A stretch of DNA of 42,288 bases from an uncultured Planctomycetota bacterium (lineage in GTDB: Bacteria; Planctomycetota; Phycisphaerae; Sedimentisphaerales; UBA12454), in NCBI GenBank assembly GCA_903847315.1, contig CAINDG010000010.1:1-42288 (forward strand), read 5' to 3'. Positions 1,888 to 42,288 of this stretch are shown here, one piece after another (the first letter of the stretch is position 1; each line of letters begins with the position of its first letter). The notes under the pieces are model-generated. The model was not told where the DNA came from. It did no database searches and saw only the letters and a list, made by a program, of their open reading frames with translations. A program made the translations under genes and the position numbers.

Positions 1888-3543
1888 GTGAAAAAAGGAA
1901 TTAGTTTAAGTGTTATCGCTCTATTTATATGGCTCGGCTGCACAGCTTCCCAAAAACAGGACCAGAATGCAATTCCATCTGATTCTAACGCACCAAAAGC
2001 TAATGCCGTTAAAAACGCACCAGTCGCCCCGCCTCAGCAAACAATGGTTCCGCCTATGGCCTACGATGATTCAAGTATTATAGTGATATGGAACAAACCC
2101 GCCGATTATTCAAATGTCGTCAGTTATAAGGTTTATCAAAACGGGTCTTTGGCCGGAACTACAAAAAATCTGTTTTACAATATTACCGACTTAGAGGCCA
2201 ATTCTCCATATTCGCTTACCGTAAAAGCCGTAGATGCCTGCGGAATAGAATCAGACCCGGGCAATAAAGTTATACAATCAACGGCTCCCGCGATGAAAGT
2301 GTTTGATGTTACCAAATACGGCGCGGTCGGCGACGGTAACACATTAAATACCGCTGCGATTCAAAAAGCTATTGATGAATGCACAAAAGGCGGAAAGGTT
2401 TTGATTCCCGCCGGTACATTTTTAAGCGGCGCTCTTTTCCTGAAAAGCGATATGACACTTCAACTCAATGGAACCTTGAGAGGCAGCGACGATGCCAATC
2501 AGTATCCGATGACAAGCAAAAGACTTTCGTATTATCTATCCGGCAACGGTTATATGGGCCTTATAAATGCATATACCGAAAAGTACGGCAGTATAACTAA
2601 TGTCAGGATATGCGGCTCAGGTATTATTAACGGAGGTTCCGATACAGTCGGCTCTTTAACAGGTCATAAAAATACAAAGCTCGGCGAGAGTCAGGCCGCT
2701 AAAAGCGGTAATGACAGCAGAAGAGGCGATATGATTACCGTAAAAGGCGTTAACGGCTTATATTTGGGAGGACTTAAACTCGTCAACCCGGCAATGCATG
2801 TTATTTATATCAGCTTTTCCAAAAATATTACAGTAAACGGAATCAATGCTGATACCTATGACATACATAACGCTGACGGCATCGACCTTGCGACAAGCGA
2901 TACAGCTTATATATTCAATTCAACTTTCGATACCGGCGATGACTGCATTAATTTCAATGCCGGCGTCGGCGCTGACGGCGTAAAAGAAAATTTCCCGGAT
3001 AATAACATCAGAGTTTTCAATTGCGTCGCTAAACGCGGGCATGGCGGCGTGGTTTTCGGCAGCTTTACCGGAGCATGGATCCAAAATGTTCTGGTTGAGG
3101 ATTGCGTTTTTGACGGAACGGATATCGGACTTCGTTTTAAAACCGGTGAAAAACAAGGCGGCGGTGCACGCAATGTATTAGCAAGGGATATTGTCATTAA
3201 GAATATCGCGAAAAATTCCGCGATATTTTTCGACAGCAGTTATTCCTGCGAATATCCTTCCGGCGGTCCGGGACAGTTTAAGGATATCACAGTGAAAAAT
3301 ATTACCTGCGAAAACCTTAAAAAGTATGGCATTTTTATTAGTGGATTGCCTGCCACTCCGCATACTAATATCAATATTAGTAATGTTTCTATTAACGGCG
3401 GTATGGTCGGCGGCGCTTACATCAAGTGCTGCACAAACAGCACCTTTGATACAATCAATATTAAGAATAGTACACCGGTATGGAAAATCGACCCAAATAC
3501 AACCTCCGGCCTTAAGTTTACAAACTGTAATCCGGCACCGTAA
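1888..3543 (+). CDS. GH28 polygalacturonase lipoprotein with FN3 domain
   Basis: It hydrolyses galacturonan, probably in exo fashion. The N-terminus is a lipoprotein signal (hydrophobic stretch ending in WLGC), so the enzyme is likely membrane-anchored. A Ser/Pro/Ala linker leads to an FN3 domain (about residues 48-132) and a GH28 beta-helix (about 139-551). All GH28 landmarks are present: NADGID near 328, the acid pair GDDC at D351/D352, GHGG at H385 and RFK at R416-K418. The version GDDCINF without the usual lysine is seen in exo-acting members. A strong TTAGGAGGT RBS sets the start. The FN3 and catalytic parts closely resemble the next gene, so the two are a tandem duplication. A terminator follows at 3570. 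Exo activity is inferred; endo activity cannot be excluded. Confidence 0.9.
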   Translation: MKKGISLSVIALFIWLGCTASQKQDQNAIPSDSNAPKANAVKNAPVAPPQQTMVPPMAYDDSSIIVIWNKPADYSNVVSYKVYQNGSLAGTTKNLFYNITDLEANSPYSLTVKAVDACGIESDPGNKVIQSTAPAMKVFDVTKYGAVGDGNTLNTAAIQKAIDECTKGGKVLIPAGTFLSGALFLKSDMTLQLNGTLRGSDDANQYPMTSKRLSYYLSGNGYMGLINAYTEKYGSITNVRICGSGIINGGSDTVGSLTGHKNTKLGESQAAKSGNDSRRGDMITVKGVNGLYLGGLKLVNPAMHVIYISFSKNITVNGINADTYDIHNADGIDLATSDTAYIFNSTFDTGDDCINFNAGVGADGVKENFPDNNIRVFNCVAKRGHGGVVFGSFTGAWIQNVLVEDCVFDGTDIGLRFKTGEKQGGGARNVLARDIVIKNIAKNSAIFFDSSYSCEYPSGGPGQFKDITVKNITCENLKKYGIFISGLPATPHTNINISNVSINGGMVGGAYIKCCTNSTFDTINIKNSTPVWKIDPNTTSGLKFTNCNPAP

Positions 3544-3569
3544 CATATTTAAAAATAACATCTTACAAG

Positions 3570-3598
3570 GGCTGCCTTTTAATGGCAGCCTTTTTTTT
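3570..3598 (+). terminator. Rho-independent terminator after GH28 lipoprotein gene
   Basis: A perfect 7-bp stem (GGCTGCC at 3570-3576 with GGCAGCC at 3584-3590), a 7-base loop, and a run of eight T at 3591-3598. Confidence 0.85.
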
Positions 3599-3626
3599 GA
3601 AAAAAAGCAAAGATTTCTGGTATAAT
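3597..3626 (+). promoter_or_regulatory. Promoter of the dockerin-GH28 gene, abutting the terminator
   Basis: TTGAAA at 3597-3602 and a perfect TATAAT at 3621-3626 with an 18-bp spacer. The -35 box begins inside the T-run of the preceding terminator, so termination and new initiation are packed into about 60 bp. The leader would be about 20 bases. Confidence 0.6.
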
Positions 3627-3652
3627 GGTTTTTTTGCTCTCGGAGGCATGGA

Positions 3653-5368
3653 ATGAAGAACGCATCTTTGCCGGCAGGACTTGCTGTAGTTTTGTTATTC
3701 TGTTTTGCGCCCGGCTTTCTTTTTGCGGATGGCCTATACGGCGATTTTACAGATGATAATACGGTAGATATCAACGATTTACCCTACTTTTTATCTTTCT
3801 GGCTGGTACATGACTGCAACCTGTCAGCCGAAATTGATTTAAACCACGATTGCACAGTAAATTTCTACGAATTTTCCGTGTTTGCAAATAACTGGATGCA
3901 AAAAGATACACCTAACCCGGCATCGCCTCAAAATCTGATGGTTCCGCCAGAAGCTTTCAATGATTCAAGTATTACTTTGATATGGAGCAAGCCATCCAAC
4001 TATTCAAATGTCGCCCGTTATAATGTTTACAAAGATGGATTATTACTCGGCAATACAACAAAACTTTTCTATAATGTTACAGGATTGACTGCCGCTACTT
4101 CATATTCATTTACAGTAAAATCTGTAAACTCTTCCGGAACTGAATTAGCCGTCAGCAACACTTGCACCAAAATAACAGCCAATACCCCCACCGTTTTCTA
4201 TCCGGAAGATTATGGCGCCAAGGCAAATGGCAGTGCCAACGATACCAACTCAATTCAGAAAGCGATTAATGCATGCACCGCCGGCGGCAAAGTCCATCTT
4301 CGCTCCGGAAAAACATTTCTGAGCGGAGCTATTTTCCTGAAAAGCAATATGACGCTTCAAATTGACGGAACATTAAAGGGAAGCACCATTGAAGCCAATT
4401 ATCCGAAAATGCCTATGCGTTTCGAAGGAACGGAAACAAACTGCTATTCGGCGTTGATTAATGTCGGCAAAACCCGCAATCATACTTATGGCGGGCAGAT
4501 AAGCCATGTTTCTATATGCGGTTCGGGAACCGTAAACGGCGGCGGCTCAACTTTAGCTTCAAACGAAGGTGGCGGTTCACAACGAGGCAGATTAATTTAC
4601 ATCGTTAACGCATCTTATGTAAATCTACAGGGTCTTACACTGACAAATCCGCCTGCATGGACCATACATCCGGTTTACAGCACGCAGATTACTATACAAG
4701 GTATAACCGCCAGTACTGTCGGCATTTCCAACGGCGACGGCTGCGACCCCGATTCCTCAACTTATGTTTATTTTTTCAACGACACTTTTAACACCGGCGA
4801 CGATTGCATCGCGATTAAATCCGGGAAAAATTTAGAAGGTTATAATATCAATATGCCTTCCAGCAATATTCGGGTTACGAATTGTATTTTTAATCAGGGA
4901 CACGGCGGCGTTACCATCGGCAGCGAATCTTCAGGCGGCGTCAATAATGTTTTTGCGCAGGATTGCGTCGTGAACGGCAACCAAATCGGCCTGAGAATGA
5001 AAACCTGTCCAGACCGCGGCGGTACTGTCGAATACATTACAATAAAAGACTGGACAATGACAGGCTGTACGAAAGCAGGAATCAATATTATAACTAATTA
5101 CAGCAGCAGCGGCGGTACTCCGGCGCCGACATTACCTATCTGTCGAAATATAACTATTGAAAATGTTACTGTAGATTCTACTTCCGTAATCGGATTTGAT
5201 ATAGAAGGACAATCCAGTATTCATATAACAGATATGTTATTTAAAAATTGCGCTTTTAACAAGAATACACCGAATAAACTTATTTATGTCGATAATGCGA
5301 CTTTCACCGGCTGTACAATTGTTGGCGGTATTAGCCTAAGTAACTGCACAAATATCATCCAAAACTAA
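3653..5368 (+). CDS. Secreted dockerin-FN3-GH28 polygalacturonase
   Basis: It hydrolyses polygalacturonan outside the cytoplasm. Residues 1-25 form a signal peptide ending in FLFA-D. A dockerin-like pair of calcium loops follows (about 28-82: GDFTDDNTVDINDL and DLNHDCTVNFYEF, ending NNWM), then FN3 (about 92-180) and the GH28 beta-helix (about 186-571). GH28 landmarks: NGDGCD at 360-365, GDDC at D383/D384, GHGG at H417 and RMK at 448-450. The start at 3653 is set by GGAGG at 3641-3645; the ATG five bases earlier meets a stop after two codons. It is a paralogue of the lipoprotein GH28 upstream, but with a signal-peptidase-I-type leader and an N-terminal dockerin instead of a lipid anchor. Dockerin-like modules are common in Phycisphaerae without classical cellulosomes, so the partner is unknown. 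Confidence 0.9.
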   Translation: MKNASLPAGLAVVLLFCFAPGFLFADGLYGDFTDDNTVDINDLPYFLSFWLVHDCNLSAEIDLNHDCTVNFYEFSVFANNWMQKDTPNPASPQNLMVPPEAFNDSSITLIWSKPSNYSNVARYNVYKDGLLLGNTTKLFYNVTGLTAATSYSFTVKSVNSSGTELAVSNTCTKITANTPTVFYPEDYGAKANGSANDTNSIQKAINACTAGGKVHLRSGKTFLSGAIFLKSNMTLQIDGTLKGSTIEANYPKMPMRFEGTETNCYSALINVGKTRNHTYGGQISHVSICGSGTVNGGGSTLASNEGGGSQRGRLIYIVNASYVNLQGLTLTNPPAWTIHPVYSTQITIQGITASTVGISNGDGCDPDSSTYVYFFNDTFNTGDDCIAIKSGKNLEGYNINMPSSNIRVTNCIFNQGHGGVTIGSESSGGVNNVFAQDCVVNGNQIGLRMKTCPDRGGTVEYITIKDWTMTGCTKAGINIITNYSSSGGTPAPTLPICRNITIENVTVDSTSVIGFDIEGQSSIHITDMLFKNCAFNKNTPNKLIYVDNATFTGCTIVGGISLSNCTNIIQN

Positions 5369-5383
5369 GTAAAAGGTAAATTT

Positions 5384-5412
5384 TTGACAAAACACAAATC
5401 TCAAAGTATAAC
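5384..5412 (+). promoter_or_regulatory. Strong sigma70-like promoter of the third GH28 gene
   Basis: TTGACA at 5384-5389 and TATAAC at 5407-5412 with the optimal 17-bp spacer. The gene starts at 5448 behind GGAGA at about 5435. Confidence 0.65.
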
Positions 5413-5447
5413 AATGGCGTTCGATTTATTTATTTGGAGATATTGAT

Positions 5448-6863
5448 ATGAAAAGAACGCTTCTTATCACAGGACTCGCTACAATTTCATTATTATTTTA
5501 TGCCGTTTCAGCAATGGCGGTTGAAAACGCAACCCCCGGACCGAACTCCATTAACACTCAGGCTAAAATTCTGGATGTCCGTCAGCTCGGTGCCAAAGGC
5601 GACGGCAAAACGATAGACACCGATATAATTCAAAAGGCTCTCGATGAATGCGGCAGCAGCGCCGGCGGTGGAACCGTTCGGCTCCCGGCAGGCATATATC
5701 TGAGCAAACCGATTAACCTTCGCAGCAATACTACACTGCAGCTCGACGAAGGCGCAAAGCTAAAGGCTACCGATGAGCCGGCCGATTTCCTCAAGCCGGG
5801 CAGGTCTTTGGATACCCTTAAGGGCAGCGGCGATTTTATGTCGTTTATTAACGGCAAGAAACTTACCAATATCGCCATTACAGGAAAAGGCACTATTGAC
5901 GGCTCGGGCGTACGATGGTGGATACCTGCCGAGGAAGCTCGAAAAAATAAACCGGGTTTTACCTCGCCGCGCCCCCGCCTGATTGGGCTGGAAAACTGCA
6001 TAAATGTAAAAATTATCGGCGTTACACTGGCTAATTCGCCGAGCTTTCACCTTGTTCCCAAAAGCTGCGAGAACGTGCTTATCGAAGGCGTGACTATACG
6101 TGCGCCATCTCTTGCGCCAAATACCGATGCTATCGACCCAAGTGTCTGCCGCAATGTCCGCATTTCCAAATGTCTCATCGATGTAGGCGATGACGATGTC
6201 GCTATAAAATCCGGCGGTCCTGACCCTGCACGTCCGGGCGAACCAGCCGCTGAAAATATTACTGTCACCGACTGCACGTTCCTTCACGGCCATGGTATGT
6301 CCATCGGCAGTGAAACTAATGGCGGCGTACGAAATATCGTTGTCCGGCGGTGCATATTCAAAAATATGGCCAGCGGTATTCGAATTAAATCTGCCCGCGG
6401 CAGAGGCGGCGTGGTCGAAAATCTCTCTTACAGCGATATCACAATGGAAAATGTGAGAGTCCCGATTGATATTGCTTCCTATTACCAAAACTCCAAAGAC
6501 AATACACCTCAGCCCGTCGATGCTTTAACACCTATCTTTCGCAATATCCGCATCAAGAATGTTACGGCTGCCGGTCAGTCCGATGCCGCTGAGATTGTTG
6601 ACCGCATTATCGATTTTGTCTATTATTATTACGCTCAGCATGCTTTTCTTGAGCCTTATGCTGCCGGCCTTATCATAGGCCTTCCGGAATGCGGCGTATC
6701 AGATGTCGTAATGGAAAATGTCCACATCTCTGCCTTTAAAGGTATGACCATTCAGAACGCTAAAGGCGTCAAGCTCAGTAACGTGAAAATCGAAACGCAG
6801 CAGGGTCCGCCGTTCATACTGGATAATGCTCAGGTCGAAGGATTGGAGCAAACAAACAAGTAA
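5448..6863 (+). CDS. Secreted GH28 polygalacturonase-type glycosidase
   Basis: This 471-residue enzyme is a signal peptide (cleavage likely after SAMA) followed directly by a GH28 beta-helix starting at about residue 40 (DVRQLGAKGDG). Landmarks are the full GH28 set: NTDAID at 225-230, GDDD at D248/D249, GHGMSIGSE at H282 and RIK at 312-314 followed by RGRGG. It has neither FN3 nor dockerin and is distant from the two GH28 paralogues upstream, so it is not part of that duplication. It is probably periplasmic, acting on oligogalacturonides or another rhamnogalacturonan-type linkage. It has its own promoter at 5384 and a GGAGA RBS. The precise linkage attacked cannot be told from the sequence. 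Confidence 0.88.
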   Translation: MKRTLLITGLATISLLFYAVSAMAVENATPGPNSINTQAKILDVRQLGAKGDGKTIDTDIIQKALDECGSSAGGGTVRLPAGIYLSKPINLRSNTTLQLDEGAKLKATDEPADFLKPGRSLDTLKGSGDFMSFINGKKLTNIAITGKGTIDGSGVRWWIPAEEARKNKPGFTSPRPRLIGLENCINVKIIGVTLANSPSFHLVPKSCENVLIEGVTIRAPSLAPNTDAIDPSVCRNVRISKCLIDVGDDDVAIKSGGPDPARPGEPAAENITVTDCTFLHGHGMSIGSETNGGVRNIVVRRCIFKNMASGIRIKSARGRGGVVENLSYSDITMENVRVPIDIASYYQNSKDNTPQPVDALTPIFRNIRIKNVTAAGQSDAAEIVDRIIDFVYYYYAQHAFLEPYAAGLIIGLPECGVSDVVMENVHISAFKGMTIQNAKGVKLSNVKIETQQGPPFILDNAQVEGLEQTNK

Positions 6864-22374: not shown

Positions 22375-25059
22375 TTAACCTTTAAGAAACTGATTTATCT
22401 GTTCAGCAGCTTTTGTGCCGTCAGCTACCGCTGTAACAACCATTTTTCCGCCGTTGATTATATCGCCGCCGGCAAAAACACCTTTTCGACTCGTTGCCAA
22501 ACCGCCGTTTTTAACCGCCACAAGATTATTAGCGGTAAACTCAACGCCGGGCAGTAAAACCTTTAAATCTTTAGAAGCTTTTTGTCCCAGCGCCTCAATA
22601 ATCACATCGACATCAAGCGTAAGCTGTGCTCCGGGAACTTCAATCGGTGCACGGAACCCTTTTTCGTCAGGCTCGGCAAGATTAACATGATTAATTCTAA
22701 CGCCTTTTACCTTACCGCTGCCGTTTAAGTATTCCTTGGGCATAAATTGATTCATAAACGATACATCTTCCGTCAGAGTATGCTGCCGTTCGCTCAGCCA
22801 TGCCGGCATTGTCACGAAAGACTCGAAGCAAATCATATATACACTGCTCGCCCCCGCTTGTTTGGCTGCGACGCAAACATCCATTCCTGTATTTCCGCCG
22901 CCGATTACAGCGACACGTTTGCCGGCAAGGTCAACCTTTTCGCCGGCCTTCATCGCACCCAAAAATTCCAAAGCGCCCCACAGGCCGTCAAGTTTTCCGC
23001 CTTTGTGCAGCGTCTTCGATTCCCATAATCCCATTCCTGTAAAGACAGCATCAAATCCTTCTGCCATTACCTTATCAAGGTTGTAATTAGAGGTAAGACC
23101 TTTACCGAAACGAAATTCAAGATTTTTTGCGGGTGCCGATTCAAATATCGCTTTGAGTTCATTTTCAAGACTCATCCCCTGCTTTTCGCGTGCGACAACT
23201 CCTTTCACCATACCGCCTATTTCATTTCTCGCTTCAAAGACGGTTACTTTATGACCTGATTCAACAAGTCTCGCTGCACAGGCAAGACCCGCCGGGCCGG
23301 CGCCAATTACAGCAACTTTTTTGCCGGTTTGTTTAGCAGGTATCCGCAGTTTCGACCAGCCGTTTCTATTGGCCTGAACAGCCAAATACCGCTGAATATC
23401 AGATATCGACATCGCCATATCGCCAAGGAAGTTCTGCATACAACTGCCTTCGCACAGGTCCTGTGTCGGGCACAGCCAGGCACAGATTTCAGGCAATATG
23501 TTTGCCTGTCTTATAACTTCGTAAGCGCCTTTATCGTCGCCGTCGAGGAACAGTTTAATAAACTTCGGAATATCGATTCCTGCCGGACAGGCTTTCTTGC
23601 AGGTAGCGTCGCCGCATTCTCGGCAGGCATCCGCAAGCCGAACAAGATTTGTCCTGTCGCCCATTCTGCCCCGCTCGAATATCGGGCCGTAAACTTTATT
23701 GTCGCGAACGACGCAACCGGCCATTCCGCCGTCACGCATAATCTGCGTACATGCGCTGCAGCCGATGCAGCATTTTTCCGGGTCCATTTTCCCTTTCTTA
23801 ATGATGTCATAAGGGAAGTCCGGATAAGCAAAACTCATTCTGCCTGCGCCGACAACTGTAACCCTGCCGTTCTTCTTGCTCGCTGCGCCGACATAAGGCA
23901 AAAGCGACCTCAGCCAGCTATAGCCGGTGCCGACTACAATCAGATTCGGAGCGGCTTTTTGAATTTCTCCTGTAATATTCAAAATTCTTGTCAGAGCAAT
24001 CAGCGGATGCTCTGGTGATTCATACGCGCCGAGAATCGGCTCGTTGTAAGGTCTGCCCATATGCGGACTGTAATAAGGATTGCCGACCGTTGTGTTGATA
24101 AACTTTACGCCGTTATCCTGCAGAAGTTTGAGCAGTTTTTTCGGCTCTGTAAAATCAGGTTTTGTATAATCGTCCTTATCAACTCCCCAGCCGTACGGAT
24201 ACGGTATCGCATCATACATCGGGAAGCGAGTGGTAACTAATTTGTCTTTGCCGAGTTTTTTGTGAATCTTGTCAATTGTCTCAAGCAAAATTCTCGTGCG
24301 ATTCTCAAAACTGCCGCCGTATTTGCCGGGGCGGTTAAAGCAGGCGAAGATTTCGTTTATCAGATAGCCGTGACAGGATTTTACGTCAACAGCGTCAAAA
24401 CCCGCTTCAAACGCTATTTGCGCAGCTTCGACAAAACGTTCCTGAAGCTGGTCAAGATATTCGTCAGTCGCAACCGGCCAGTCAGGTGCCAGATTCTTTT
24501 TAGCGTTCGCGTTTGGCGGGAACTGGGGAACCATTACATCTCTGTACGGGTCGTGCTGTGGAATTATCGGCTCAGATACGCCCTTCGGTTTCGAATATCT
24601 TCCGCTGTGAGTAAGCTGCGCGACAATAATCGGATTATGATTTTTGCCGAATCGTTTCCACGCTGCCTCACGAGCCAGTCGTATCACATCTTTAAATGTT
24701 TCTTTACTGTCCTGGTTTAACCAGAGCTGACGAGGATTGGCTCTTCCTTCAGGAACAACCGCTATCGCTTCCGACCAGATAATGCCTGCGCCGCCGGCGG
24801 TAAAACGCTTGTATCGCCGAAAAGTCAAAGGCCCGGGTCTGCCCTGCGAGTCGCCATCACAGCCTTCCATCGCCTGTGTCGCGAAGGAATTCGGTGCGGT
24901 AAGCTTGCCGACTTTGACGGGCTGAGCCAGAATTGAAATGTCATCGCTTGTTTCGATTTTGACCGAAAGCGCTTTGGCAAGTTTGTGCAATTGCTCAACA
25001 TTGCTTAAATCAAAATCCCATATGTTCTGTTTCTTCGGTCTGATTCTTAATGGTTCCAT
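22375..25059 (-). CDS. Old yellow enzyme fused to GltD-like Fe-S/NAD(P)H flavin reductase
   Basis: An 894-residue multidomain flavoprotein, first gene of the operon. Residues about 40-420 are an OYE/2,4-dienoyl-CoA reductase TIM barrel with FMN-site motifs such as the catalytic-type QLTHSGRYS and FDAVDVKSCHGYL. A 4Fe-4S motif follows (CCIGCSAC...C, about 427-447). Residues about 470-575 are a GltD/DPYD-type helical Fe-S domain (CRECGDATCKKACP; CAWLCP...CEGSC). Then come FAD (GAGPAGLACAARL, about 583) and NAD(P)H (GGGNTGMD, about 721) Rossmann domains, with GDIINGGKMVVTA at the end. The layout is like dienoyl-CoA reductase but with an inserted GltD Fe-S domain. It likely reduces an activated C=C or C=O of an uronate-derived intermediate. 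It is divergent from an AraC regulator. The substrate is unknown. Confidence 0.85.
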   Translation of the reverse strand: MEPLRIRPKKQNIWDFDLSNVEQLHKLAKALSVKIETSDDISILAQPVKVGKLTAPNSFATQAMEGCDGDSQGRPGPLTFRRYKRFTAGGAGIIWSEAIAVVPEGRANPRQLWLNQDSKETFKDVIRLAREAAWKRFGKNHNPIIVAQLTHSGRYSKPKGVSEPIIPQHDPYRDVMVPQFPPNANAKKNLAPDWPVATDEYLDQLQERFVEAAQIAFEAGFDAVDVKSCHGYLINEIFACFNRPGKYGGSFENRTRILLETIDKIHKKLGKDKLVTTRFPMYDAIPYPYGWGVDKDDYTKPDFTEPKKLLKLLQDNGVKFINTTVGNPYYSPHMGRPYNEPILGAYESPEHPLIALTRILNITGEIQKAAPNLIVVGTGYSWLRSLLPYVGAASKKNGRVTVVGAGRMSFAYPDFPYDIIKKGKMDPEKCCIGCSACTQIMRDGGMAGCVVRDNKVYGPIFERGRMGDRTNLVRLADACRECGDATCKKACPAGIDIPKFIKLFLDGDDKGAYEVIRQANILPEICAWLCPTQDLCEGSCMQNFLGDMAMSISDIQRYLAVQANRNGWSKLRIPAKQTGKKVAVIGAGPAGLACAARLVESGHKVTVFEARNEIGGMVKGVVAREKQGMSLENELKAIFESAPAKNLEFRFGKGLTSNYNLDKVMAEGFDAVFTGMGLWESKTLHKGGKLDGLWGALEFLGAMKAGEKVDLAGKRVAVIGGGNTGMDVCVAAKQAGASSVYMICFESFVTMPAWLSERQHTLTEDVSFMNQFMPKEYLNGSGKVKGVRINHVNLAEPDEKGFRAPIEVPGAQLTLDVDVIIEALGQKASKDLKVLLPGVEFTANNLVAVKNGGLATSRKGVFAGGDIINGGKMVVTAVADGTKAAEQINQFLKG

Positions 25060-33763: not shown

Positions 33764-36700
33764 CTATTGCTCCAAATACATCCAGACAATTGTAGCAGTT
33801 CTCGGATTGTTTTCCATTAGCTTGGATGCATATTTGTGCATAGCAAATTCAATAGCTTTGTCTCTCGACCAGCCAAATTCCTTATTCAGGATATTTACAT
33901 AGGCGGACATAGCACCAAACCATTCCCTGGCAGCAGCGTAACGAGTACCATCATTGGTATGATCTGACAACACAGACACGATTAACACCATTTGAGCATA
34001 GGTCAGTTCTTCTTTCTTTGATGATGGTGCAAGTTCTTCAACTACGGCGTTTAATGCCGCAACCCGTGTCCCATTAGCGTCGCTTAGGGTCTTGGAAAGT
34101 TTACTAACTGCATCGCATACTTCACATAGCTGTCTATGCGTTGTGTCTGTCGACTGGGTAAGAGAGCTCTCTGCCAGATAAACCTGAGTCTCCTGAACAC
34201 TAAGTTCCTTAGCCGTCCATGTCTTCAGCTCTGTGCAATCTAACACTTCATTATGGTCTTTTGGCACATAGAACATCAGCGGCGGAACCGGCTCTATGCC
34301 AACATTCACATAGGTTATTACCGGCGGTAGCGGCGGTGGAATCGGAACTGGGTTGATAAAGTTAAGCACCCATGCCTCTGTCTCGCCGCCTCTCAGTATA
34401 TACTCATCGCCATGGAATCCTGGCGGTAACAGGCCGTCTGCATATTCATCAACATACGGCAGCGTACCGAGAATCCAGGCATCCTGAACCGTTTCAGTGA
34501 TTCTGGAGCTGGCCTCTAACACCTGTCCTTCCCCTGTGACGAATCCAGGCGAAGCATCAAATGCACTTCCAAACGTTACCGTATCGTATGCATCGATAAC
34601 CACCGCTGCATTTACTGCAAGAGTATAGACCGATGCATTCATCACTACATCATGGCCTGTTTGAGCCACTGGATTATAAAGACCCGTTGCATAGCCAGGT
34701 TTGTAACTGCCGAGATAAATTGCCACATCAAACAACTCGCCCGGCTGTTTAGAGCTAACGTACAGAATATCCTCGAAGTTGATGGCATCGCGGTCATCGA
34801 CTGGACCAGTGCTGTATGCTCCGTATGTTCCGCCGGCGTTCAGTTTGATATTCGCCGCATTCAAGCCAAGGTCTTCTAAACCTAATTTCAGGTCTTCTCT
34901 TTCGCTGACAAGCACAATAGCTGCTCTACCTGCGTACTCATCTATACCGTACTCAGAAGTACCATTAGGATTAGTAGTCCATGCTGCTGATAGAGTGGCA
35001 ACTCTCGTCGTACCATCATAATCGATTATGGTTCTTATCTGTCCTTTACCCGTGCCGTCTACAATTTTAATTTGTCGTCCATTATAAAAGTCATTCGTAG
35101 TGGAATCAATAGCCGCAAGAGTAATTGTGGTCGACGTGCCCGCTTGTGCGTACCCTAAATAAGCATAGTCATCAATATAAGGCAGAAGAACGCCGGTATG
35201 GAGCGAAAGATCGCTGCTCATCGTATCAGAGTAACCGGTTATCGTAACATAATCGAGCGTGTCATAACCAAATGTACGTATCGTACCATCAGTCGATTTC
35301 ACTACCGATACACCACCACCAGTAGAGGTCAGAACGCCAATTGCATTTATACCGTACTCGGAACCGGCAACAGGTTCAGTAGCCCAGGCTTCTGATACAG
35401 TGGCAACTTGTGTCGCACCGTTATAAGCGGTTATGGTTCTTATCTGTCCTTCACCCGTGCCGTCTAAAATTTCAATTACCCGTCCCTTATAGAAGTCATT
35501 CTCAGTGGAAGCACCAGCCGCAAGCTGGATTGTCGATGGGCCGCCCGCCAGTGCTGTTCCTGGGATGACATATCTGCCACCATCCAGAAGTGAATCGTTA
35601 CCAACCAGAAGTGTTCCGTCACCAAAGGTATGAGCTGCATCAAACGGATTGCCGCCTATATGAGTACCGATTACTATGTCTCTGACAGAACCGCCAGAGC
35701 TGCTGCCTTGCAGATAAATATTTCTCGTGGCTTTCGCCTGTATGGAAAGCCACTTGTCCGCAGCATTATCAGTGTTGCCGCCGGCATAATTTCTACCATC
35801 AATATAACTGCCATCAATCTCGGCACCATTCTTATATAGACCAGCGTGGTCAAGATCTACTGCCGTTATTGCACCTTCGCCTGAATCTAATCCTGAACCT
35901 GAAGCGGTTCCGGTGCTGGACAACATAAGATCTGTGTTTTCCTTGTTGTCAAACGCAAAGATTGACAGGTCTATTGACTCTGCCTGTATCATCGTCAGGG
36001 TGCTGCCGCCGGCGGTGATAACATAATCGCCTCCGTGCGCCTGCGTCATACCTCCATAAACACATTCCAGAACAATACTGCCATTGGTAGCTTCTATATT
36101 CCGCAGTTCAACATCGCTGCCTATATGGCCATACACAGAAGAACTATCAAGCGGAGTAATCCAGTCTTCCGATACAGTGGCAGTTCTCGTCGAACCAACA
36201 TAATTGGATATGGTTCTTGTCTGTCCTGCACCCGTGCCGCTCAAAATTACAATTTGCTGTCCGTTATACGCGTCATCAGCACTGGAAGCACCAGTTTCGA
36301 GAATGATTGTGTTCGACGCACCACCTTGCGTGAATCCTGTTGTTCCCCACTCAGTTACTATTATATCGCCGTTATCGGATTTGGCCGCCAGTACATCCAC
36401 ATCGGTGTCAAACCGACCCAGACCAGTACTATCGGCTTGTCCTATATCGCTGAGGGCATCCAGAGTCAACAGGGTTGTCGTAACATTCGAAGTGCCGTCT
36501 GTACCGTCTGTTATCGTACCAGCAGTATCATTATGACCAGTAGCAGTCAGCGTCACATACTCACTACCGCCTACCGGGGTAGTAATATCGCCATCCTGCA
36601 TAATTTGGCCGGCATGTACCGTTATGTAACTATCGACGCCGGTGGTCTCTATCGTTGCGCTCTCATGGTTACGCACCATACCATCATCAGCCGTTATCTT

Positions 36701-39700
36701 TATGTGACCGCCGGTAGCGTCGCCATTAGCTATTATTATCGCATCATCATTGTTAAACACTCCATCGTTGCCCGTTATCTCTATGTAGCTGTCATCGCCG
36801 TCAGTCTCTATCGTTGCACCAACATCGTTAAGCACCTGGCCGTCCGTAGATGTTATCTTTATGTTGCCGCCTTCATCGGCTTGAGAGATTATCGTCGCAT
36901 CGTCACTGTTAGTTACCCCGCCGATAGCTGTTATGTCTATATAACTGTCATCGCCGGTAGTCTTTATCATCGTATAGTTCGTGACCGTTCCTGTGGCTGT
37001 TATTGTTATATAATCAACAGCCTCAAGACCGTCATCATTTACCACCACATCTACAGGGTCTATGTCCAGCCAGCCGCCGGCATCTACCTTGCTGTGACCT
37101 GGTGGGTTGCCTTCACCTCCAGTAGTCGTTGCCGCCATCAGTACATCGCCGCCAATATCAAACTTGATATTGCCAACGCCGTCTTCTTCGGCCGTCGTTA
37201 TATAACCTTCTACATTAGCAGTAGCATTACCAATCAGCAAATCGCCGCCGGCTGTAATTTTGATATTGCCGTAATCCGCTTCTACCGTCGCATTAGCACT
37301 CTCGCCTATCAGGACATCATTAGTCGCACCCTGACCAGCCGTTATCGTTATATCGCAATCTCCGCCGAGGCCGGTAGTCCTTATCATCGAATCGTTCGTT
37401 ACGCTGCCGGCTGTCGTTATCTTTATGGGACTGTTATTACCCAAGGTCTCTATCGTCGCACCTTCTTCGTTAGTTACCGCGCTTTCAATACCAGTGGCCG
37501 CTATATCTATGCGACTGTCATACATCTGCGCCCTTATCGTACCGGAATTAGTTACCGTACCATCAGCACCAGTAACCGTTATCGCTATATTACCACGACG
37601 GCCTTCAGTCACTATCAGCCCATCATTCGTTACCTTCTTAGCAGCCTCTATGTCTATGTCACTGTAACTGCTGCCCAAAGTCTCTATCGTATCATAATTA
37701 AAGACCTTACCATCAGCGCTATTAGCCTTTATAGTTATGACACTGCCATAACTATTAGTCCTTATCATTTCATTGTTAGTTATCACACCATTAATACCAG
37801 TAACCTCCATTGCTATATGACTGCCAGTGCCGCTGGTATATATCGTATTATTGTTCGTAATTGCATCTTCGGCCGTTATCTCTATGTGATTGTCACTGCC
37901 GCCAGTAGTTATCGTCCCGTTATTTGTCACTGCGCCTGCGGCAGTTATTTCTATATCCCCGTCATTTGTCGCAACAGTTGTATCTACCCTCACATCACCC
38001 AAAATTGTGGTGTCTATCGAAATATTACCGGCATTACCGGCACCAACTGCCGTAACCGTCTTGGCTATGATATTTCCGGTGCCACTAACCCCATTTACGC
38101 CTTTAGAACTGATGGCTATATCACCGCTTACAGTAGTCACACTCGTTAATGTCAATTCTCCGCCATCAATCTGGCCAAACTTAATATCTGCATTAGTACC
38201 TGTTGTTGAAACGTCTACCAACTCCGTTGCCGTAGCCAGATAATTGATTAAATCTATATTAGCATTGCTACCGGTCGTATGGGCATATATCGTCGTCGCA
38301 GCCGTCTCAATTTCCTCGGTTGTTCCAATGCCCGTAACCGCATCAAGGTCAAGTACCCTGGCTATCAGGTCTTTGGTACCATCTGAACCTGACCCTGTTT
38401 CATCATCTTCTATTGCACTGACTGAATTACTGATTGTTATCGTATCGCCTAATGCTTTTACAACACCGACAAGAACATCACCGCCGCCATCCTGGTTAAA
38501 CGTGATATTCGAATTGGTGCCGCTCGCCTCGGCATTAAACAAAACATTTTCCGTCGAGGTGTTGTCAATGTGTATATCAGCATTATCGCCGGTTGTATTG
38601 GCCGTTATCGTAGAACCGGTCACATGAGTGTCAAGAGCGCCCGTAGCAACACTGCCAATAGTACCATTATTTCCATGGGTATTTAGCACAATATCACCGG
38701 CTATAATGTCTATAGTCGTGTCTTCGGGTCCAGTGTCCACTATCGTGCCGGCATTGGCAGTCAGTGAAACCCTGCCGCCATGCAGCTCATCCAGTCCGGC
38801 TGCATTAATGAGGCCAACAATAATGTTTGTCCCAGCCGTCAGGGTCACATCACCATCACCGGTAACAACATCCGTAGCCGTAATCATATTTCCGGTCACC
38901 GTCACCGTCACACTGCCATGAGATGTGTCAGATGTATCGATATCCGTCAGCGTCACCGCCTCTGTAGAAGTCATTACTATATTACCAGTACTCTGCGAAT
39001 TGGCCGTTACGTCAACTCCGCCTGTATGGAGGTCTTCTATATAAATACCATTACTACCGCTGGTCAAATCCAACGTCGGAGCGTCAACCTCAATCATAGC
39101 ATCGCTGCCGCCTATCGACAGACCAGCTGCTATTGTCAATGTGTTATCTGCCCTCACATCATATACACCATTATCCGCCGTGGTCGGCTCCGACACAGAA
39201 CCAGCCGCAATTATGCTTACATTGCCGGCACCTACACCAGAATTGACGCCATTAACATGTGTAACTTCAATATTACCGCTCGTATTGGTCGTCAGCGATA
39301 CCACCGTCTGAGCAACACCGCTGTTAATAGTGCCATCCACTGCAGTCGCTATAATATCAGCACTATTCACACTTACCATTATCGTGCCGTTGGCCGTATC
39401 AACATCGGTCAAAGTTACCTTCTCGGTACCGTAAATCTCTATATTGCCCGCCGTCTGGGCATGGGCCGTTATGCTGTCGCCGCCGGTGCCTATTGCGTTG
39501 AGGAATATGCCGCCCGAAGTCGTATTGGTCGCTGTAACAGTATCGGCATCCACCTCAATGGCTCGTCCGGTACCCGCGGTACCCACGGTTCCTATGCCGG
39601 TTACAGCATTCAAAACAATTGCTGCAGCCTTGATCTTCGTTGCCGTATCATTATCTGCATCGCTAATCGTCCTATATTCAGATGTCAGCGTAACTGTGCC

Positions 39701-42288
39701 TGCAAGTGCATCTACCGAATGCACTTTAATATCACCGTAGGTTGCGTTGTTCGCATAGACAGCAAAATTCTCGCCTGTCGCAAGGTCAACATCGACCTTG
39801 TCAGGCGCCGATCCAAGCTGAATACCATCATGACTAGTACTATCATTTTCCAGAACATATACACTGCCGCTAACTTTTTCGATGTTCAGTATCTTTACAT
39901 CCGTATCCAGCCAGCCATCATCGGGAGTCGCAGGACCACCACTGCTGGTGCCTACAGCAGTCGCTCCGGTAATATTCAACGTCGTCGTCGTAATATCCGT
40001 CGTGCCGCTGGTGGTGTCCGTTATCGTTCCAGTAGATACCCCTCCGGTAGGTATCAATCCAACAGTAGCTTTCAGCGTTACATAATCCGTAGGCGTACTG
40101 TCTATTGTAGTCGTAATATTGCCGTTCTGCACTATATCGCCGGCATCAATCTTTACGTGACCATCAGCAGTATCCACGAATATCGTAGAATTGTTCGTTA
40201 CTATGCCGGTTGCCTCTATCTCTATATAACTGCCGGCTATAAGCCCAACATCGGCTATCGTCACATTCACAGGATCTATCTTAATATATCCGCCGGAATC
40301 AATCTTCGTTATCGCCGTGGTATCTTTCAAAGTCACATTCCCTAGGTCAGTAGTAACCTCGATGCCGCCCGTACCGGTGGTTTGTACAACACCAGCCTTA
40401 TCACCTATACTGTTACCTACCGTTATATCCCCAACTGCCGTCACAGTAATATCGCCGTTTACCGCCGTTACTGTAGCAGCTGCCGTATCGGCTATTTGAA
40501 TATTCTCGCCGGCTGTCAATTTAATCGTGCCGAGGCCGCCTGTCTGTATCGTCGAATTGTCCATTATCGAACTTGCGGCATTTATCGCTATGGCACCAGT
40601 CGATGCCGTAACACCACTTCCGCCTCCTACCGTCACATTACCTGCAATCTTGGTGTCTATCGAAATAGCACCGGCACTACCTGCTGTAACCGTCTTGGCC
40701 GTAATATCTCCGCTGTCAATTATATCGTATACGGAAGTAGCATCTGGCGTAGTAGTCCAAGCCGATACAGTGGCAACTTTCGTCGTGCCGTCATAATCGG
40801 TTATGGTTCTTGTCTGTCCTACACCTGTGTGGTCTAAAATTTTAATTACCCGTCCATTATAGAAGTCATCATCACTGGAAGCACTCGCCGCAAGCTCGAT
40901 TGTGGTAGGCGTACTGCCCGCCGCTTGTGCTATTCCCGAGATAACACCAGCCTCAGAGCTAATATCTATATTACCACTGGCGGTAACCACGCTTTGTAAT
41001 GTCAATGTTCCGGTCGTTCCCGCGATACCGTATTGGTCAAATGTGATGCTTGCATTAGCACCAACCGTTGAAGCATTCAACGTCGTGCCACTATCCAGAT
41101 AATTGGCTATATTTATATTAGCAGGACCATCGCCGCTCGTATCTGCAGCTATAATCGTCGCAGATGTCTCAATCGCATTACCAGTCATTCCTGTACCCGT
41201 ACCTATACCCGTAACTGCATCAAGGTTAAGCTCGTAGGCATCCAAATCGACTGTATAATGTTCACCCGACCCTGTCTCATCATCATATATCCCACCTGCC
41301 GAATTGATTGTTATTGTATCGTCGGTAGTACTCGGTGTGCCGTCATCAGCCGCTGTCAATGTCCCGACAGTTATATCACCCGCACTTGTGGTATCTATCG
41401 TAATATTACCGGCACCGCCTGCCGTAACCAGAGTGGCTATGATATTTCCGCCCGCAGAACTAATGACTATATTACCAGTGTTGCCTGTAAGCTTGCCAGT
41501 AGTCACTTCTTCTAATGTCAATGTTCCAGTCGCTCCACCGACACCGAATTGGTTAAACGTAATATCCGCATTGGCGCCCTTAGTCCAGGCAGTCAACTCA
41601 GCATTAGCCGTCGAGGTATTGTTAATGTATATATCAGCATCATCGCCGCTTGTATATGCCTCTATCGTAGAACCGGTTACTGTAGTGTCAATCTCATTAT
41701 TGGTTCCGGCAGCACCAATGCCGGTTACAGCTTCTAAATAAATCGTACTGGCAGTAATGTCGATATCTGCATCACCATCTGTACTTATTGCACCCGTGCT
41801 GGCTACAAGTTTTACTGAGCCGTGCTTACCGGTAGCATTAAGGGTATCAAAAGTAATTGCCTGACCGGCAACATCAATTCCGCCACTTACGCCGTTAGCG
41901 CTTATGCTCGAACCTGCATCAAAGAGTGCATCACCGGTATTAATGCCATCCACATCAGCACGAATTACGACAGTACCTGATATTGATTCCAAGCTCGTCG
42001 CCCCAGCAGTTAGCGTCACACCCTCATTGGCATTAATAATGACATTGCCTTGAACTACAACTGCCACTCCAGCCGCCAGTGTCACATCATCGCCAGCATT
42101 AATAGTTAAATGCGTTAACGCCTCATCCGCTCCAATATTGCCATTGACCACTATCTGACCGCCGGCATCGGCATCAAGACCATAAAAACCGTCCACAACG
42201 TCAAGAAGTATATCGCCGCCGGCTAACATCGCTACATTCGAGCCAAGCTGAACATCCGTAGCCAAACTAAGATCTATATCAGTACCTA
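33764..42288 (-). CDS. Giant repetitive beta-helix surface protein, 5' end outside the window
   Basis: The frame is open from the right edge to a stop at 33764, more than 2,840 residues; the start lies beyond 42288. The sequence is poor in Cys, Lys, Arg and Trp, rich in Gly, Thr, Ala, Asp, Asn and Ile, and built of short strand-turn repeats (GNITIDTTSAGDITVG; SYIDITAIGGVTNSDDATI), as in filamentous-haemagglutinin-like and other beta-solenoid adhesins. Modules starting L-x-AVTGIG recur near 41730, 41215, 39600 and 38340. A ~65-residue cassette (YNGRVIKILDHTGVGQTRTI) occurs four times. The last ~250 residues differ: a Pro linker (IPPPLPPV) and a charged helical domain with CTELKTW, CEVCDAVSKLSK and a C-terminal WMYLEQ. 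No beta-barrel, LPXTG or PEP-CTERM signal is seen. It is probably an exported adhesin; the N-terminal secretion domain must be checked outside the window. Confidence 0.8.
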   Translation of the reverse strand, partial: GTDIDLSLATDVQLGSNVAMLAGGDILLDVVDGFYGLDADAGGQIVVNGNIGADEALTHLTINAGDDVTLAAGVAVVVQGNVIINANEGVTLTAGATSLESISGTVVIRADVDGINTGDALFDAGSSISANGVSGGIDVAGQAITFDTLNATGKHGSVKLVASTGAISTDGDADIDITASTIYLEAVTGIGAAGTNNEIDTTVTGSTIEAYTSGDDADIYINNTSTANAELTAWTKGANADITFNQFGVGGATGTLTLEEVTTGKLTGNTGNIVISSAGGNIIATLVTAGGAGNITIDTTSAGDITVGTLTAADDGTPSTTDDTITINSAGGIYDDETGSGEHYTVDLDAYELNLDAVTGIGTGTGMTGNAIETSATIIAADTSGDGPANINIANYLDSGTTLNASTVGANASITFDQYGIAGTTGTLTLQSVVTASGNIDISSEAGVISGIAQAAGSTPTTIELAASASSDDDFYNGRVIKILDHTGVGQTRTITDYDGTTKVATVSAWTTTPDATSVYDIIDSGDITAKTVTAGSAGAISIDTKIAGNVTVGGGSGVTASTGAIAINAASSIMDNSTIQTGGLGTIKLTAGENIQIADTAAATVTAVNGDITVTAVGDITVGNSIGDKAGVVQTTGTGGIEVTTDLGNVTLKDTTAITKIDSGGYIKIDPVNVTIADVGLIAGSYIEIEATGIVTNNSTIFVDTADGHVKIDAGDIVQNGNITTTIDSTPTDYVTLKATVGLIPTGGVSTGTITDTTSGTTDITTTTLNITGATAVGTSSGGPATPDDGWLDTDVKILNIEKVSGSVYVLENDSTSHDGIQLGSAPDKVDVDLATGENFAVYANNATYGDIKVHSVDALAGTVTLTSEYRTISDADNDTATKIKAAAIVLNAVTGIGTVGTAGTGRAIEVDADTVTATNTTSGGIFLNAIGTGGDSITAHAQTAGNIEIYGTEKVTLTDVDTANGTIMVSVNSADIIATAVDGTINSGVAQTVVSLTTNTSGNIEVTHVNGVNSGVGAGNVSIIAAGSVSEPTTADNGVYDVRADNTLTIAAGLSIGGSDAMIEVDAPTLDLTSGSNGIYIEDLHTGGVDVTANSQSTGNIVMTSTEAVTLTDIDTSDTSHGSVTVTVTGNMITATDVVTGDGDVTLTAGTNIIVGLINAAGLDELHGGRVSLTANAGTIVDTGPEDTTIDIIAGDIVLNTHGNNGTIGSVATGALDTHVTGSTITANTTGDNADIHIDNTSTENVLFNAEASGTNSNITFNQDGGGDVLVGVVKALGDTITISNSVSAIEDDETGSGSDGTKDLIARVLDLDAVTGIGTTEEIETAATTIYAHTTGSNANIDLINYLATATELVDVSTTGTNADIKFGQIDGGELTLTSVTTVSGDIAISSKGVNGVSGTGNIIAKTVTAVGAGNAGNISIDTTILGDVRVDTTVATNDGDIEITAAGAVTNNGTITTGGSDNHIEITAEDAITNNNTIYTSGTGSHIAMEVTGINGVITNNEMIRTNSYGSVITIKANSADGKVFNYDTIETLGSSYSDIDIEAAKKVTNDGLIVTEGRRGNIAITVTGADGTVTNSGTIRAQMYDSRIDIAATGIESAVTNEEGATIETLGNNSPIKITTAGSVTNDSMIRTTGLGGDCDITITAGQGATNDVLIGESANATVEADYGNIKITAGGDLLIGNATANVEGYITTAEEDGVGNIKFDIGGDVLMAATTTGGEGNPPGHSKVDAGGWLDIDPVDVVVNDDGLEAVDYITITATGTVTNYTMIKTTGDDSYIDITAIGGVTNSDDATIISQADEGGNIKITSTDGQVLNDVGATIETDGDDSYIEITGNDGVFNNDDAIIIANGDATGGHIKITADDGMVRNHESATIETTGVDSYITVHAGQIMQDGDITTPVGGSEYVTLTATGHNDTAGTITDGTDGTSNVTTTLLTLDALSDIGQADSTGLGRFDTDVDVLAAKSDNGDIIVTEWGTTGFTQGGASNTIILETGASSADDAYNGQQIVILSGTGAGQTRTISNYVGSTRTATVSEDWITPLDSSSVYGHIGSDVELRNIEATNGSIVLECVYGGMTQAHGGDYVITAGGSTLTMIQAESIDLSIFAFDNKENTDLMLSSTGTASGSGLDSGEGAITAVDLDHAGLYKNGAEIDGSYIDGRNYAGGNTDNAADKWLSIQAKATRNIYLQGSSSGGSVRDIVIGTHIGGNPFDAAHTFGDGTLLVGNDSLLDGGRYVIPGTALAGGPSTIQLAAGASTENDFYKGRVIEILDGTGEGQIRTITAYNGATQVATVSEAWATEPVAGSEYGINAIGVLTSTGGGVSVVKSTDGTIRTFGYDTLDYVTITGYSDTMSSDLSLHTGVLLPYIDDYAYLGYAQAGTSTTITLAAIDSTTNDFYNGRQIKIVDGTGKGQIRTIIDYDGTTRVATLSAAWTTNPNGTSEYGIDEYAGRAAIVLVSEREDLKLGLEDLGLNAANIKLNAGGTYGAYSTGPVDDRDAINFEDILYVSSKQPGELFDVAIYLGSYKPGYATGLYNPVAQTGHDVVMNASVYTLAVNAAVVIDAYDTVTFGSAFDASPGFVTGEGQVLEASSRITETVQDAWILGTLPYVDEYADGLLPPGFHGDEYILRGGETEAWVLNFINPVPIPPPLPPVITYVNVGIEPVPPLMFYVPKDHNEVLDCTELKTWTAKELSVQETQVYLAESSLTQSTDTTHRQLCEVCDAVSKLSKTLSDANGTRVAALNAVVEELAPSSKKEELTYAQMVLIVSVLSDHTNDGTRYAAAREWFGAMSAYVNILNKEFGWSRDKAIEFAMHKYASKLMENNPRTATIVWMYLEQ
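34941..35137 (-). repeat. Dispersed cassette copy D in the giant protein
   Basis: Encodes TTITLAAIDSTTNDFYNGRQ, then GTGKGQIRTIIDYDG and ATLSAAWTTNPNGTSEYGI. It is one of four copies that align over about 65 codons at protein and DNA level. Confidence 0.75.
35345..35539 (-). repeat. Dispersed cassette copy C in the giant protein
   Basis: Encodes STIQLAAGASTENDFYKGRV, then GTGEGQIRTITAYNG and ATVSEAWATEPVAGSEYGI. It lies about 400 bp from copy D. Confidence 0.75.
36124..36316 (-). repeat. Dispersed cassette copy B in the giant protein
   Basis: Encodes NTIILETGASSADDAYNGQQ, then GTGAGQTRTISNYVG and ATVSEDWITPLDSSSVYGHI. It is the most divergent of the four. Confidence 0.75.
36590..37970 (-). 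repeat. Tandem TN-type strand repeats in the giant protein
   Basis: Consecutive units of about 20-40 residues with the pattern V-T/F-N-x-x-x-I-x-T-x-G-x-x-S-x-I-x-I-x-A, e.g. VTNDGLIVTEGRRGNIAI and VTNDSMIRTTGLGGDCDI. The regular I-x-I pattern and Asn ladder fit a right-handed beta-helix. Confidence 0.65.
40719..40912 (-). repeat. Dispersed cassette copy A in the giant protein
   Basis: Encodes TTIELAASASSDDDFYNGRV, then GVGQTRTITDYDG and ATVSAWTTTPDATSVYDI. It sits about 4.4 kb from copy B and interrupts a module that begins AVTGIG. Confidence 0.75.

Follow-up and report, generated by a model that had tools for sequence, protein, structure and literature searches.

What is the short cassette that recurs four times within a giant beta-strand-repeat protein at one end of this contig, and how did it reach its present position and number? 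The window, by which we mean the whole stretch of DNA analysed here, is the entire contig C10 (42,288 b) of an assembly of 2.44 Mb in 54 contigs. We propose, with a probability of roughly 60%, that the cassette serves virion and cell-surface proteins as a promiscuous accessory domain offering an additional contact site, possibly one for glycans, and that it entered the giant protein and was amplified there to at least four copies.

Four copies of a cassette in one giant gene

The original prediction described four copies of the cassette in a single giant ORF, and all four were found within the predicted span on the minus strand (Table 1). A direct-repeat search returned a single family, 211 nt in length, whose members number exactly four (34939, 35344, 36121 and 40714). 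Pairs of window copies share 49-67% amino acid and 66-78% nucleotide identity, as against only 20-42% nucleotide identity in the 20-codon stretches flanking them on each side, and 26 of the 69 columns in the four-copy protein alignment are invariant. The unit comprises 71 residues, from G-T-A-Q-A-G to T-S-V-Y-x-I. Across 47 diverse copies, information content rises from ~0.4 to 1.3 bits at the G four residues ahead of AGTSTTITL (the N-terminal boundary) and drops to about zero a few residues past Y-x-I (the C-terminal boundary). No fifth copy or resident donor was found elsewhere in the whole assembly, in which the gene itself is cut by the contig end. Since this end truncates the host ORF, the complete protein is longer and could contain more copies of the cassette.

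Table 1. Features of the giant-protein gene and their positions in the window
Feature	Position	Strand	Residues (aa)	Remarks
Host ORF	33764-42286	minus		2840 aa C-terminal part of giant beta-strand-repeat protein; 5' end open, contig stops at 42288
C-terminal region of giant protein	33767..34669	minus		Relatives in 12 other same-order genomes, all without cassette
Cassette c4	34943..35155	minus	2378-2448	GYAQAGTSTTITL...FYNGRQIKIVDGTGKGQIRTIIDY...AWTTNPNGTSEYGI; AlphaFold2 model with flanks, pLDDT 96.7
Cassette c3	35348..35560	minus	2243-2313	
Cassette c2	36125..36337	minus	1984-2054	Most divergent copy
Module without cassette, second empty site for c1	37901..38254	minus	1345-1462	Joined c1 flanks align, 48% identity, E 6e-22
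Cassette c1	40721..40936	minus	451-522	One residue more near start, one fewer before AWTT
Module without cassette, empty site for c1	41273..41629	minus	220-338	Joined c1 flanks align, 45% identity, E 8e-24

The resemblance of the copies at the DNA level had been read as a sign of recent spread, and this reading holds for the window copies. Their dS values are 0.36-0.63, and because the synonymous sites are thus unsaturated, the copies arose recently inside the giant gene. Of 104 third bases compared at fourfold-degenerate sites in conserved residues, 84 agree, far more than chance would give: the gene's own codon usage predicts 30.4 ± 4.6, and none of 5000 simulations exceeded 47. Fourfold agreement between window copies and copies elsewhere is 25%, i.e. 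at saturation. A protein tree of 62 cassettes did not group the four window copies, as its 71-residue rows were too short to resolve it, and their common origin therefore rests on the synonymous sites instead. Most likely, to judge from the sequences, one ancestral cassette was amplified within the lineage of the giant gene and its protein sequence then drifted fast (dN/dS between window copies, 0.56-1.07).

We also examined the occurrence of the cassette in related genomes. It was found in none of 12 genomes of the same genus or family, in 5 of 97 sampled order-level relatives (E up to 1e-3) and in 7 of 391 other genomes of the phylum (E up to 1e-8). Its absence from near relatives and from the twelve genomes with a homologue of the C-terminal region of the giant protein fits acquisition in the source lineage. 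The giant protein would thus be a natural case of the acquisition of a module followed by its multiplication. An 8121-aa ORF of a same-order genome (L097 and L104 in G053) carries one typical and one divergent cassette.

Predicted fold and insertion into host domains

For copy c4 with its flanks, AlphaFold2 (input alignment of 58 sequences) returned a compact six-strand beta domain with a pTM of 0.85, in which the first and last strands lie at the extreme ends of the domain. This was the outcome of the structure prediction originally suggested as a check, which thus produced a compact beta domain and no regular coil; the suggestion that the cassette might be a loop-forming unit is contradicted by the same model, in which the domain is predicted to fold alone. 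The cassette is therefore predicted to be an independently folding, small beta-barrel-like domain. When copy c1 was modeled in a 256-residue host context, its core kept a pLDDT of ~95-97, and the beta-helix flanks were poor (~40-60) and unreliable. Since the flanking beta-helix is of such low model confidence, we infer rather than observe that the cassette projects to the side.

Direct evidence of insertion comes from c1. When joined, its flanks match both cassette-free modules of the same protein (Table 1) over the whole flank length, and they place the insertion site in the turn between a strand ending NIDISSEAG and the strand GDITAKTVT. The claim that the cassettes interrupt regular modules is thus borne out directly for c1 by two internal empty sites, but it is less clear for c2-c4, whose surroundings are less repetitive. 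Other hosts provide further cases. The gp8 protein of phage pf16 has no cassette at the site that is occupied in L008 and five relatives, and the Coleofasciculus patatin contains ~77 extra residues between an APTYFP stretch and the DGG motif, where patatin structures are nearly contiguous. In this patatin-like phospholipase (L087:1541-2740), the cassette lies just ahead of the DGG motif and adjoins the active site. With the internal empty sites for c1 and the independent compact fold, the prediction of a distinct inserted domain has held up, and we regard both insertion and independent folding of the cassette as well supported.

Comparison with solved structures gave the RcGTA hub (6tba_7A, residues 169-248) as the best match, with a Z score of 10.5 over all 76 residues at 1.9 Å, followed by R4C (Z 9.5), JBD30 (8.5), phage Chi (8.1) and LKA1 gp49 (4ru4, residues 286-369; 8.0). 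Lower matches included K1 lyase (7.8) and other barrels from phage and beta-helix proteins, such as GH110 (7.5) and T5 pb9; small barrels of unrelated proteins (UBA1, F1-ATPase, pre-ribosome factors) were matched as well. Since a Z score under 8 may reflect a mere common arrangement, the comparison rests on the top matches and on the fact that these, like the cassette, are inserted domains. No sequence kinship with these fold neighbours was detected, as profile searches of the PDB gave no significant match. Among predicted viral structures in BFVD, there were 19 matches below 1e-3, with up to 53% identity, including one in a pectate-lyase-like phage protein. Predicted proteins of Mimivirus-type giant viruses (BFVD A0A1X9VNT2, A0A1X9VNQ1 and A0A481Z1A5) have the same domain at 23-43% identity.

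The fold neighbours resemble the cassette to differing degrees. The RcGTA hub domain is likewise inserted within another domain; however, it is a fixed baseplate part that is not known as shuffled, and its identity to the cassette is 16%. In the LKA1 tailspike gp49 (PDB 4ru4, residues 283-370; 68 residues aligned), a small beta-barrel interrupts a beta-helix, as does the cassette, but it is present in single copy and forms part of the enzyme groove. The small barrels of the GH110 galactosidase PdGH110B are also attached to a beta-helix protein, although they share only 4% identity with the cassette and are involved in dimer contacts.

Distribution among virion and cellular proteins

Searches of Pfam, PHROG and PDB sequences with the cassette alone gave no significant family match. 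DUF3857 (PF12969) was considered as a possible family and rejected (15.7 bits vs. a gathering cut-off of 24.6). A first scan of viral contigs confirmed 449 relatives, and a second scan with a consensus query confirmed at least 563. The host comparison sample comprised 212 cassettes in 173 ORFs at 164 of the retrieved loci, some of which overlap. When the cassettes were masked, the 173 ORFs fell into 25 groups without mutual similarity. Identified virion hosts were the gp8 baseplate wedge, a tail protein (phrog_376), a tailspike beta-helix, Phage_tube_2, Baseplate_J, a tail fibre, a nozzle and an SU10 adaptor; other identified hosts were an FlgL-like flagellin, PilW and the patatin. A phage-type (prophage-type) tail sheath, found separately in the record of a Paenibacillus plasmid, also has the cassette. 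The original prediction had mentioned similar segments in phage structural proteins and other large surface proteins, and the viral scans and identified hosts support this.

Two further observations concern bacterial hosts. In a flagellin or FlgL-like protein of a Bacillota MAG (L093:4641-7406), five cassettes lie between the flagellin N- and C-terminal domains. A divergent branch with the pattern GxGxGQxRxI...W..xPD..S occurs in bacterial proteins (L099, L101, L104 and L128-L131), some with beta-helix or pectate-lyase matches, and its sequence pattern suggests a wider superfamily of such inserts.

Promiscuous accessory domains on virion proteins are already known. Ig-like domains occur on tailed-phage proteins (Fraser et al. 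2006, as cited in PMC10684548), and domain mosaicism in tail proteins has been documented (PMC10684548). Like the cassette, the Ig-like domains of tailed phages are small and have been added to many unrelated virion proteins. However, the cassette has another fold, is inserted within domains and is also found in cellular enzymes and appendages, and no Ig family was among the Pfam matches of 58 cassettes. What is new is a sequence family uncatalogued in the libraries searched, inserted within domains and present both in virions and in enzymes and appendages of cells. Because the versions of Pfam and PHROG that were searched have no entry for it, the family is unlabelled in genes for baseplate, tube, nozzle, adaptor, tailspike, flagellin-like, pilin and enzyme proteins, and with a cassette profile many proteins now called hypothetical would be annotated in one step.

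Possible role of the cassette and alternative explanations

How might such a domain have reached the giant protein, and what might it do there? As both of its ends lie in the first and last strands, the cassette could be inserted at a turn of a recipient domain and leave that domain intact. One copy would have entered the giant beta-helix-like protein, and duplication within the gene would then have raised the number to at least four. Projecting sideways from its host, the cassette would provide a contact. By analogy with fold neighbours described as oligosaccharide-binding, it may bind a ligand, perhaps glycans. The RcGTA hub domain was so named by similarity to LKA1 (PMC7296036), so its sugar binding is itself assigned by similarity. 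In LKA1 gp49 the six-stranded insertion domain lines and deepens the substrate groove of the beta-helix, but the authors call the role of this domain unclear (PMC5701251). If one module does bind one ligand in unrelated hosts, then it is a portable adhesion part common to phages and bacteria; if the ligand is not shared across hosts, the fold would have spread for its insertability alone.

The inserted barrel might instead be a structural spacer or clamp that stabilises subunit contacts, oligomers or the host fold and binds no ligand, which we consider possible though rather unlikely. Roles of this kind have been described or suggested for several fold neighbours: barrel domain VI of the JBD30 hub stabilises the baseplate (PMC11445458), the GH110 barrels contribute to dimerisation (PMC7939477), and the LKA1 insertion domain has been likened to a P22 coat domain for which stabilisation of subunit contacts has been proposed (PMC5701251). 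However, the same conserved core occurs in proteins of very different assembly states (a patatin enzyme, a minor pilin and a flagellin-like protein), which have no common partner to clamp. Taken together, the roles reported for RcGTA, LKA1, JBD30 and GH110 favour a contact or glycan role over that of a pure spacer by about two to one.

A broader proposal is that the plug-in domain serves as a general exchange unit of phages, giant viruses and cells that is still moved in frame between unrelated genes by specific recombination, its consensus being kept for one generic contact function. This we judge improbable. The best nucleotide identity between cassettes of unrelated hosts is 74%, and fourfold identity between them, at 29%, is no higher than chance, even for cassettes that are as much as 76% identical in protein. 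No current jump from gene to gene is visible in this comparison. Since fourfold sites are at chance despite such protein identity, the domain is old and widely shared and appears to be held by selection.

The same data bear on whether the cassette behaves selfishly, as an in-frame insertion element spreading at the DNA level through unrelated genes and tolerated since it folds by itself. A sharp-ended unit in 25 unrelated host families, its recent multiplication within the giant gene, and dN/dS values between window copies that suggest weak constraint would all agree with this idea, which we nevertheless find very unlikely. The cassette DNA has no palindromic ends or terminal inverted repeats apart from one 10-nt chance pair, and no near-identical DNA that could mark a viral donor was found in viral contigs or phages, nor was any copy found elsewhere in the genome. 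It therefore differs from elements of the Rickettsia palindromic type, which have both palindromic DNA and near-identical copies in unrelated genes. Moreover, cassettes of unrelated hosts can be up to 76% identical in protein although their synonymous sites are saturated, which implies that the fold is under purifying selection. That the four copies are ordinary beta-helix coils, alike by happenstance, might be supposed because the surrounding protein itself consists of strand repeats, some of them 60-77% alike at the DNA level, but the independent compact fold, the non-helical hosts and the empty sites make this reading extremely unlikely.

Finally, the surroundings of the giant gene bear on whether its cassettes reside in viral or cellular DNA. 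Nearby genes encode GH28-type enzymes, KDPG aldolase and a kinase, AraC regulators, and efflux components with a TolC-type protein. As these neighbours are ordinary bacterial genes, the giant-protein gene looks cellular and not part of a prophage. Three adjacent genes at 1888-6863 match polygalacturonase or rhamnogalacturonidase (GH28-type) families, a regulator of the AraC type and a gene for a sodium/solute symporter lie near this trio, and genes for KDPG aldolase and a PfkB kinase are found further along; it is likely that this is a pectin and uronate utilisation region. Elsewhere in the window (22375-25059), a single gene of 894 aa fuses an old-yellow-enzyme-like FMN domain to a glutamate-synthase-small-subunit-like domain with a 4Fe-4S part.
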